DNA of 42,797 nt from Pseudomonadota bacterium. GTDB lineage: Bacteria > Pseudomonadota > Gammaproteobacteria > Xanthomonadales > Rhodanobacteraceae. Location of the stretch: positions 1 through 42,797 of the forward strand of contig JAKPAN010000240.1 of the NCBI GenBank assembly GCA_029779475.1, given 5' to 3'. Positions 1 through 39,752 of this stretch are shown one piece after another. Under the pieces are notes generated by a model. It did no database searches and was not told the DNA's origin. It was given only the letters and a program-made list of their open reading frames with translations. A program made the position numbers and the translations under genes. The first letter of the stretch is position 1. Each line of letters begins with the position of its first letter.

Positions 1-1408
1 CAATCCGGGCACGACGACGATCCGCTTCGCGATCGGCTGTCCGAACACGATCGCGCTGTCGAGTCCGCTGCCGGACATTGTCAAGCCGATGGTCATCGAC
101 GGCTACAGCCAGGCCGGATCGTCGCCGAACACGAGCGTCGACGGCTTCAACGCGACGAACTGCGTCACGCTGACCGCGAACGCCGAGCCGACGGTCACGC
201 ACGCGCTGCGCGTGCCGTCGAGCGCGTCGAACGATGTCGCGCTGACCGTGAAAGGCTTGCGCATCATCGGCTTCGCCGGCACGCCGCTGCGCCTGATCGG
301 CGGCAGTGGGCATCTCGTGCAAGGCAACCAGTTCGGCGCCGGCGACGTGCCCTTGCTCGCCAACGTAACCAACCTTCAGGTATCGGGCACGACACAGGCG
401 CAAATCGGCGGCCCTGCACCGGCGGATCGCAACGCGATCGGCTGGGCTTACGGAACGAGCGGGATGGATGGCGCCGGCGTGCTCGTCACCGCATCGGGAC
501 AACCGACGATCCAGAACAACCTGATCGGTCTCAAGCCCGACGGCACGACGCCGGCACCCAACGGCGCCGGCATCTGGCTCGCCAACTTCGACGGCGCATT
601 TGTCTTCGACAACATCATCGCGGCCAATCGCAGCCACGGCATCGCTTTGAAAGGTGCGCTCGGCATTCCGGTCAGCCACGCCGTGATCGCGCGCAACTGG
701 ATCGGCCGCACGCCATCGGATTCGCGCGCGGCGTTGGGCAATGGCGGCACCGGCATCTATCTCGCCGCCGGCGACGACAACGCGATCGGCGATTCTGGGT
801 TCGGCGTCAACGTGGGCAACGCCATCGAGAACAACAAGTATGGCGGCGTGTGGATCCACGGCGGTGTCGGCAACTCGGTGCGCAACAACCGCATCGCCTT
901 CAACGACGACGCGGGCAGTCCCGATGCGCCGGCCGGCGAACCGATCGCGATGCGGCCGGATTCGATGCCCGTGCTCAACCTCGATCTCGGCGACTACAGA
1001 GCCGATCCCAACGATCCGGGCGACACCGACGACGGCGCCAATCATCTGCAGAACTCGCCGGTGATCCTCGCCGCCTCGCCGGCGCAAACCCGCCCCGGCA
1101 CCTTAAGCGGGCAGTTGTGGACGCAACCGGGCATGTACGCGATCGACGTTTATCAGGCCGCGGGCCTGTCGTGCCTGAGCGATGGCCGCGGCCCCGATCT
1201 GGGCCAGCGCATCGGCATGGGCGTGGTGAGCGTCGCCAGCGCCGCCGCGCCGACGACATTCACGCTGAGCCTGCCCGACGGCTACGACTCGAACCACGCC
1301 TGGCTCACAGCCACCGCGACCAACCGGGGCACCAACGACACGTCGGAAGCCGCATCGTGCTTCGACGCGAGCGACGCCGATCTCATCTTCGCCAACGGCT
1401 TCGAATAG
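1..1408 (+). CDS. Secreted right-handed beta-helix protein, 3' part only
   Basis: The reading frame is open from base 2, so the 5' end lies outside the window and the ATG at 89 is internal. The visible part (about 468 residues) begins with a beta-strand-rich stretch containing GTTTIRFAIGC and VIDGYSQ. It continues with repeated short N-rich turns (IQNNLIGLKPDGT, FDNIIAANRSHGIAL, IENNKYGGVWI, VRNNRIAFNDD), the pattern of NosD/pectate-lyase-like parallel beta-helices. A strand-rich C-terminal domain follows, and the protein ends in DADLIFANGFE. The same tail occurs in the secreted protein at 37921-39752, so it looks like a sorting or anchoring signal (inference). The ligand is unknown. The next gene starts 10 bases after the stop. 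Confidence 0.8.
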   Translation, partial: NPGTTTIRFAIGCPNTIALSSPLPDIVKPMVIDGYSQAGSSPNTSVDGFNATNCVTLTANAEPTVTHALRVPSSASNDVALTVKGLRIIGFAGTPLRLIGGSGHLVQGNQFGAGDVPLLANVTNLQVSGTTQAQIGGPAPADRNAIGWAYGTSGMDGAGVLVTASGQPTIQNNLIGLKPDGTTPAPNGAGIWLANFDGAFVFDNIIAANRSHGIALKGALGIPVSHAVIARNWIGRTPSDSRAALGNGGTGIYLAAGDDNAIGDSGFGVNVGNAIENNKYGGVWIHGGVGNSVRNNRIAFNDDAGSPDAPAGEPIAMRPDSMPVLNLDLGDYRADPNDPGDTDDGANHLQNSPVILAASPAQTRPGTLSGQLWTQPGMYAIDVYQAAGLSCLSDGRGPDLGQRIGMGVVSVASAAAPTTFTLSLPDGYDSNHAWLTATATNRGTNDTSEAASCFDASDADLIFANGFE

Positions 1409-37920: not shown

Positions 37921-39752
37921 ATGTTGCTCGTTTCCGACGTTTTGGAAAGTATTGCCGTGTCCGCCGTCCGCTCAACAAAGAGAAGCTGCGGATCGGGCGT
38001 TCTCCGTGTCGCCGCCGCGCTTTTCGTCGCGGTCGCTTCGGGCCCGGCCGTGCGCAGGCCTTCACCGAAAACTTCGATGACATCACGTTGCTGACGGGCA
38101 ATGGTTGGTTCATGCAGAGCAACAACAGCCCTGTGGGAACCAACCCGAACTGGTTCCAGGGCTCAGCCGTGGCTAGCGGTGGTCCATTCGACGCGTACAA
38201 CGGCGCTGCAAATTCCTATATCGCAGCCAACTTCAACGGCACCTCGGGCGGTTCGGGCACGATCAGCAATTGGTTGGGGACGCCGAACCGGACGCTGCGC
38301 AACGGCGATGTCTTCACGTTCTACACGCGCAAACCGACTGGTACGGACTATCCCGACCGTCTCGAAGTGCGCCTGAGCACGAATGGCGCGAGCACGAACG
38401 TAGGGGCGAGCGCTGCCGCCACGGGGGACTTCACGACGTTGCTGTTGTCGATCAACCCCAATTTGACGACCGGCGTCTACCCCACAACGTGGACGCAATA
38501 CACGATCACGATGTCGGGACTTCCCGCGCCTACTTCGGGACGAATGGCCTTCCGCTACTACGTGACCGGCGCTGGTCCGACTGGAACGAACTCCGACTAC
38601 ATCGGCATCGATAATGCGGTGTATACGCCGTACGTCTGTCCTGCGTTCACGATGACGCCGGGCGGCGCGCTGGTTGGCGGGGCCTATGCACAGCCCTATT
38701 CGACGTCGCTGACGCAGACCGGCGCTTTGGGTGCGCCCAACTACGCAGTGACCGCCGGCGCATTGCCGCCTGGATTGACGCTATCGGCGAACGGCACGAT
38801 TTCCGGCGTGTCCCCGGCCGTTGGCACGTTCAATTTCACGGTGACGGTCAACGATGCGAGCGGTTGCAACGGCTCACAGTCCTACTCCATCACGGTGGCG
38901 GCCACGGCACCTGGTGCGCCCACCGGCGCCAGCGCCAGCGCAGGCGATGCACAGATCGACGTGAGTTGGGTCGCCCCTACCAACGATGGCGGCAGCGCCA
39001 TCTCGGGTTATCTCGCCACTTGCACCGATGGCACGAACAATTTCAACACGACGGGTGCTACGCCGCCGATCACGGTGGGCGGACTCACCAATGGCACGGC
39101 TTATACCTGCGCCGTGTCGGCGATCAACAACGTAGGTACCGGCACCGCCTCTGCGCCCAGCAACAGCGTCACGCCGACAGGCAACCAGAGCATCAGCTTC
39201 GGTCCGCAAGCCGGACAGGTCTACAGCCCTGGCGGAACCTTCGCCGTCAATCCACCCGCCACCGCGAGTTCCGGGCTTGCCGTGACCTATGGATCGACGA
39301 CGCCCGGCGTATGCACGGTAAGCGGATCAACGGTGTTCATCGTGGCCGCCGGCACCTGCACGCTCACCGCCGATCAGCCTGGAGACGTTGCATGGAACGC
39401 GGCAGCGCAGACACAACAATCCGTGGCCATTGCCCCAGCCAGCCAGGTCCTGACGTTCCCGCCACAAACCGAGCCGAGCTTGCTGTTCGAGGCGGGAGCC
39501 ACGTTCGCCATCGCGCCGGAAGCCACCAGCGCCTCGCCCAATTCGGGTAATTCCATCGCTTATGGCTCGCTCACCCCGGCCGTGTGCGAAGTGAACGGCA
39601 CGACGGTGACGATGGTGGCGCCCGGCGCCTGCATCATTGCGGCGAATCAGGGCGGCAACGCCAACTTCGATGCGGCAATGCAGAAGACGACGCAGGTCAT
39701 GCTGCTCGATACCATTTTCGCGAACGGGTTCGAAGCGCCGCCGACGTTGTAA
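37921..39752 (+). CDS. Secreted multidomain protein, frameshift in signal peptide
   Basis: The ATG at 37921 behind a strong ribosome site gives MLLVSDV...VLRVAAALFVAVASGPAV, a signal peptide, but that frame is left at about 38051; the mature part lies in another frame from 38052. One extra base there would read AVAQAFTENFDD, a proper cleavage site. Mature domains: choice-of-anchor J-like (FTENFDDITLLTGNGWF to about residue 195), a putative Ig domain (LPPGLTLSANGTISGV), a fibronectin type III domain (PGAPTGASASAGDAQIDVSW), two 85-residue Ig-like repeats with paired Cys (VTYGSTTPGVCTVSG, IAYGSLTPAVCEVNG) and the tail DTIFANGFEAPPTL. Likely surface protein. It may be a sequencing slip or a real inactivating or phase-type frameshift; a start at 37893 in the mature frame lacks a signal peptide. 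Confidence 0.7.

Follow-up and report, generated by a model that had tools for sequence, protein, structure and literature searches.

Why should two predicted exported proteins with no other visible resemblance end in the same few residues, and which machinery, if any, reads them? The question was raised by a window of 42,797 nucleotides (the whole stretch of DNA analysed, contig bases 1-42797), in which a preliminary description had noted two IFANGFE tails and compared them to a sorting or anchoring signal.

Two tagged proteins in the window

Both tails were confirmed in the sequence (Table 1). That their hosts share nothing else was borne out by BLASTP, which at E <= 10 gave no match between the two proteins. 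The 17-base tag pattern occurred in the window as two exact matches and as three with at most one mismatch, as compared with a mean of 0.08 (at most one mismatch) in 100 shuffles. Taking IFANGFE as the conserved unit proved right as to the shared end and too short as to the unit, which begins with Asp and spans nine residues, D-x-[IVL]-F-x-[ND]-G-F-[DE], with alternation of N and D and of E and D.

Table 1. Features of the window and of the gspC-A locus in the same genome (window positions, unless a contig is given)
Feature	Position	Strand	Detail	Basis
Tag 1, D-L-I-F-A-N-G-F-E	1379..1405	+	stop codon 1406-1408 directly after; codons and stop at 1379-1408 GAT CTC ATC TTC GCC AAC GGC TTC GAA TAG	sequence; one of 89 genome matches
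Host 1, right-handed beta-helix protein	2..1408	+	468 readable residues	para_beta_helix, E 2e-6
Tag 2, D-T-I-F-A-N-G-F-E, then A-P-P-T-L	39708..39734	+	codons GAT ACC ATT TTC GCG AAC GGG TTC GAA, five codons, then stop TAA 39750-39752	sequence
Apparent signal peptide of Host 2	37921..38051	+	other reading frame than mature part	
Host 2 mature part, choice-of-anchor J domain protein	38052..39752	+	domain at about 38061-38621	
gspC-A	C38:20393-21268		5' part of gspD next, runs to contig end	E 2e-78
Tagged gene divergent to gspC-A	C38:18312-20315			

The beta-helix assignment of Host 1 was confirmed; its 5' end is missing where the contig starts, and the signal peptide of Host 2 is out of frame with the mature part. 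This break (window 37921-38060) is apparently a frameshift in the assembly, either real or an error. A homologue from another genus (L163), 67% identical to Host 2 over 558 residues, has a variant tag at its end, LFTDGFDVPQR. For Host 1, 108 homologues were found, the nearest named one being from Dokdonella (P0003). The last predicted strand of Host 1 (residues 433-441) is common to them. Past this strand some homologues stop, and two (P0044 and P0062) carry an IPTL-CTERM-like tail at the same place as the tag. Six others match the tag pattern near their end, and about seven more have what were judged by eye to be tag variants, for example IFSDDFEL, VFADSFD and LLRDGFE. In the structural model of Host 1 (P0001) the mean pLDDT was 83.8 overall versus 48 over tail residues 461-468.

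Abundance, position and hosts of the tag

The genome of the window (3.23 Mb searched, 86.7% complete) contained 89 matches to the core F-x-[ND]-G-F-[DE] in a DNA pattern search, whose looser form admits [DNHY] before G-F-[DE], versus two for the reversed pattern. Removal of repeats left 87, of which 79 lay in plausible genes and eight shadow-frame matches were set aside as chance. Asp at position -3 (53 of 57 C-terminal copies) and Ile at -1 (48 of 57) recurred with neither being required by the search pattern, and over 69 aligned hosts the only near-universal features were F, G and F of the tag and the start Met. The complete 27-base words that encode the tag were all distinct (78 of 78), and AT-rich genomes encode the same peptide by different codons (places in G098 and G036), which argues for selection on the peptide. 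The high copy number might be read as that of a DNA-level repeat or mobile element yielding IFANGFE by chance; these same two observations contradict that account and make its probability close to nil. In G036 and G098 paired tag matches were seen 33-36 bases apart on one strand (G036:C1:871659-871720 and G098:C3:9229-9287), an arrangement that suggests tandem tags within one protein. Three loci (L009, L033 and L040) carry nearly the same tagged C-terminal stretch, which in two cases stands where a contig begins.

The supposed preference for C-termini held. In the window's genome no more than 12 residues separate 57 of the 79 plausible copies from the stop; three of the 57 belong to ORF remnants of 8-25 residues where a contig begins. 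For predicted ORFs of three genomes, from loci fetched for holding the motif and not for its position, 72 of 92 motifs were within 15 residues of the end versus 2.7 expected at random position. The remaining copies of the window's genome comprise five directly after the signal peptide (L006, L034, L061, L070 and L071; L150 is a further case in another family) and 17 internal ones; automatic sorting had given four copies within 80 residues of the start and 18 elsewhere, and the first motif of L070 was moved by eye. About 26 to 926 residues follow the internal copies, some of which may be chance. A recurrent internal form, ..VIFRDGFD, was seen after DUF11-like stretches and before about 56-185 further residues in seven loci (L044, L055, L081, L090, L032, L045 and L023), and may be a separate architecture.

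Once their last 20 residues are disregarded, the hosts are diverse. Single-linkage clustering of the 54 C-terminally tagged hosts of at least 100 amino acids, with these residues trimmed, gave 30 groups without similarity to one another, the largest holding 18 members. The 69 hosts scanned matched 44 NCBIfam and 79 Pfam families, most commonly choice_anch_Q (14 of 69), and include subtilases, M36-like proteases, ExeM-type nucleases, a PHA depolymerase, a chitinase, Kelch and delta-60 propellers, and beta-helices. The tag is therefore not the mark of one protein family, and together with its restriction to one order and its bimodal counts (see below) this variety upholds the earlier view of a sorting-like short end on unrelated exported proteins. 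A home-made, crude signal-peptide score was passed by 62 of the 79 hosts. On a comparable score 56 of 71 C-terminally tagged ORFs passed versus 188 of 377 untagged ORFs, and the score is permissive because so many of the latter also pass. One of the 62 hosts with a signal-peptide score had a strongly hydrophobic window after residue 45, and ten matched a loose lipobox pattern, most of them with a further Ala-x-Ala-like site downstream.

The tail itself had been said to lack a transmembrane helix and a basic cluster, and this is so: neither these nor a PEP-CTERM-like tail was found in 45 C-terminal hosts, in which the highest 15-residue hydropathy over the last 40 residues ranged from -0.06 to 1.75 and the ends consist of GF[DE] plus 0-12 residues. 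None of the curated NCBIfam sorting-tail models matched the tag when ten tails of 50 residues were searched at E <= 10; only choice_anch_Q and plastocyanin domains matched, both ending before the tag. In the two 50-residue tails concerned, from two hosts, the domain model leads up to the tag, ending for choice_anch_Q at residue 41 (model position 58 of 58) and, nearly complete, for plastocyanin at residue 37 (98 of 99).

Persistence across orthologues and distribution among genomes

The tag is kept as protein ends change. For a tagged subtilase, each of the eight close orthologues closes with the tag or a variant of it, six of them imperfectly, and two (L206 and L207) have 155-168 added residues with the tag at the new end. 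A second family has 12 homologues, of which ten keep a terminal tag or variant, whether or not a DUF11 domain has been added, and two (L198 and L201) do not. Among the genomes given to the search, this second family was found in nine of 15 tagged and none of 17 untagged genomes, the subtilase family in seven of ten tagged and none of 14 untagged ones. The neighbours common to the tagged loci of three genomes (G005, G000 and G031) were tagged orthologues, and no enzyme was among these shared neighbours.

Such shifts of the tag to a new end upon addition of domains bear on the idea that the peptide is a structural end cap, that is, a strand or turn completing the fold of each host. An [ND]-G pair with aromatic residues on either side would fit well into a beta turn, and the extended form GFESGG.SNWS of Acidobacteriota may resemble the first strand of jelly-roll domains. 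The host folds are, however, unrelated, and the pLDDT of the tail was low in the one host modelled, so that we consider an end cap very improbable.

Over 299 genomes of the order the tag counts (core pattern) were bimodal, with 202 genomes holding 0-4 tags and 86 at least 10, up to a maximum of 194; the reversed pattern gave 0-5 per genome over the same set. The longer pattern was matched in 115 of the 299. Four genomes of the window's own genus (G000, G110, G279 and G281) have 80-194 tags each. Across 274 genomes sampled from the class, 18 had a match, that of the window included, and at most two tags occurred outside the order. The matches listed in named genomes include Dokdonella, Tahibacter, Pseudofulvimonas, Aquimonas and Lysobacterales MAGs, and 71 of the 83 closed-frame matches listed there lie within 15 residues of the stop. 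Also among the matches listed were three loci (L233, L236 and L279) of two Acidobacteriota MAGs, where the tag is longer and C-terminal, for example IFADGFESGGYSNWSGSSP; two proteins in L233 bear this longer form.

A panel of 68 genomes, 33 tagged and 35 untagged, was searched for partners in five families. Rhombosortase was over the cut-off in none of the tagged and five of the untagged genomes, with weaker rhomboid matches in all 68, and does not track the tag. Neither does exosortase, found in 18 of 33 tagged and seven of 35 untagged genomes (a panel with G063 instead of G005 used later) and absent from four genomes of the window's own genus; the six exosortases scanned were XrtH. The [ND]-G-[hydrophobic] part of the tag resembles asparaginyl-ligase sites, which prompted a search for Peptidase C13; this was present in 19 of 33 tagged versus 19 of 35 untagged genomes and was likewise set aside. 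Twelve Peptidase_C13-like matches were seen in G016, most of them inside very long open frames. A strictly C-terminal anchor served by one processing enzyme is thus not supported, with five of 79 copies after the signal peptide, 17 internal and none of the three enzymes tracking the tag. A cut-and-attach signal is disfavoured, because copies in the former two positions would not be allowed.

A gene family that co-occurs with the tag was found in GspC of a second type II secretion system (GspC-A), present in 33 of 33 tagged and five of 35 untagged panel genomes. GspD as a whole was over the cut-off in 66 of the 68, including all 33 tagged, and does not separate them; by score and length, sorted by eye, the GspD proteins fall into two kinds, of which only the type-A subset discriminates. 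Identity between type-A GspD proteins averaged 51.6% (120 pairs) versus 30.0% (48 pairs) between types A and B, and the two types split in a tree with full support. From the loci fetched (17 type-A and three type-B genes), the type-A locus comprises gspC with a PDZ domain, gspD and gspE, in some cases then gspF and ftsE/ftsX-like genes, and often lies beside rho, trx and a DEAD helicase. Type-A GspF matched TIGR02120 far better than XpsF. The type-A system is known here from gspC, gspD, gspE and gspF, pseudopilin genes not having been located.

All 299 genomes of the order were searched with a GspC-A profile built from 12 sequences. With thresholds of at least 10 tags and a GspC-A E value below about 1e-34, both chosen after the tables had been seen and applied to hand-copied values, 78 genomes had both, eight only tags, 38 only GspC-A and 175 neither. 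At a completeness of at least 95% the corresponding counts were 52, 2, 16 and 154, by genus 30, 1, 8 and 46, and for families f1 and f2 together 13, 0, 1 and 140. Within f8, f9 and f10 taken singly the association was not significant (the Fisher values ignore kinship and are not from independent trials). GspC-A is not sufficient, because 38 genomes have it with fewer than 10 tags; about 30 of these belong to genus g31 of family f10, with 0-4 tags. No variant tags were seen in four loci read from g31; an altered tag is possible there. Of the eight genomes with at least 10 tags and no GspC-A, six are 60-94% complete; G063 and G097 are 97-98% complete with 15 and 10 tags, respectively. In the single exception within f1, G230, which has no tags, GspC lies 0.1 kb from a true rhombosortase; the type-A-like gspC and gspD stand side by side with that gene (G230:C47:20050-23331), and these positions would fit a possible exchange of the tag system on one secretion system.

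The association may reflect shared ancestry, because GspD-A follows species groups and so few independent losses occurred in 299 genomes. Under co-inheritance alone the tag would work for a different machine or end, and the loss of the second type II system from the same lineages would have had causes of its own. Such co-inheritance would account for those few losses, for g31 keeping GspC-A without tags and for G063 and G097 being tagged without it. It is nevertheless unlikely, as presence and absence agree at genus level in f1 and f2 apart from G230, and a tagged gene adjoins gspC in four genomes: in the window's genome it is divergent to gspC-A (Table 1), and homologues of 24-30% identity adjoin gspC-A in G110, G281 and G031. 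The ends of these homologues are NDVIFADGFD, DDTIFRYGAE and NDIIFRYGHE; the latter two mean that two of the three tags are degenerate.

A putative address for type II secretion and its known counterparts

We tentatively propose, as the leading of several readings, that the tag is an address for the second Gsp-type type II secretion system, most probably a substrate signal. Tagged proteins would leave the cytoplasm by Sec export, and the tag would then hand them to this system for passage across the outer membrane. It would act as a peptide of nine residues that lies exposed, whether at the N- or C-terminus of a folded protein or within a linker, and its reader might be either GspC, through its periplasmic PDZ domain, or the secretin GspD. 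The older Xps-type system, which occurs in tagged and untagged genomes alike, would not use the tag. A docking signal fits better than a cut-and-attach one, since both ends and linkers are tolerated, no helix is present and no tested processing enzyme tracks the tag. GspC, which tracks the tag, is regarded as a component by which a type II system selects its substrates, and there are precedents for such contacts. The EpsC PDZ domain is required for VesB in Vibrio cholerae, according to the portion of PMC12369372 available to us, and the available text of PMC7949064 describes loop 3 of PelI, also exposed and nine residues long like the tag, as a specific signal contacting GspC and GspD. The loop of PelI and the Ig domain of VesB differ from the tag in being part of one protein's fold and not common to unrelated substrates; the tag is one linear motif on dozens of them.

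The bolder reading extends this proposal: D-x-[IVL]-F-x-[ND]-G-F-[DE] would be a universal, linear and portable type II signal, read by the PDZ-bearing GspC of the second system. Wherever exposed, it would suffice to take unrelated folded proteins across the outer membrane, and Acidobacteriota would have a longer form of it. This is rather doubtful. Recognition of type II substrates is called elusive or poorly understood and is thought to rest on structure in the parts of PMC7949064 and PMC12369372 at hand. If the proposal is true, recognition would become directly testable through one linear tag paired with one of two systems per cell, a surface or extracellular role could be assigned to many proteins of Dokdonella, Tahibacter, Aquimonas and their kin that now lack annotation, and a compact export tag would be available for the engineering of harmless strains. 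As a putative sorting tail, the tag has no earlier description in the literature searched: queries on the motif and on sorting signals of Xanthomonadales, outside of which most subscription journals lay, returned no description, and some matches were, by their titles, apparent chance strings in ordinary words.

Alternatively, the tag may retain proteins at the surface. They would leave by the second type II system or otherwise, and the tag would then dock on, or be attached to, an undiscovered outer-membrane receptor or enzyme, similar to GlyGly-CTERM, MYXO-CTERM and the type IX tail. Several hosts are homologous to proteins anchored elsewhere (choice_anch_Q, choice_anch_J, rhombotarget A) or match M36 models that depend on type IX secretion, rhombosortase or myxosortase, and the IPTL-CTERM-like tail of P0044 and P0062 stands at the place of the tag. 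GlyGly-CTERM, moreover, acts with type II secretion in V. cholerae, and as an independent motif it needs a second secretion signal for outer-membrane passage, as set out in the part of PMC13393428 available; this call for a second signal keeps the anchor alive as a rival. Since the tag has neither a hydrophobic helix nor a basic cluster, can stand after the signal peptide or within a protein, and is tracked by no tested enzyme, we regard surface retention as somewhat improbable.

Compared with known systems, the tag resembles GlyGly-CTERM/rhombosortase in being a short tail on many unrelated exported proteins, with overlapping host families. It differs from GlyGly-CTERM, with its membrane helix and dedicated rhomboid protease, in having no helix, and rhombosortase was over the cut-off only in untagged panel genomes. 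Species with GlyGly-CTERM generally have type II secretion as well, and no particular type II subclass is tied to rhombosortase in the sections of the 2011 work at our disposal (PMC3237569), unlike the subclass with GspC-A, which tracks the tag here. PEP-CTERM/exosortase and IPTL-CTERM/XrtH share the logic of many proteins to one tail, and an IPTL-CTERM-like end is found at the same place in Host 1 homologues; they differ in that the tag has neither helix nor basic end, and exosortase gave no matches in G000, G110, G279 and G281. The type IX C-terminal domain is likewise a tail of unrelated secreted proteins in one lineage, where it directs outer-membrane passage and attachment. That domain has about 70-100 residues, whereas the tag has nine and is tolerated at the N-terminus and inside proteins. 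Two tagged hosts match the type IX model Por_Secre_tail (TIGR04183), irrespective of the place of the match in the protein.
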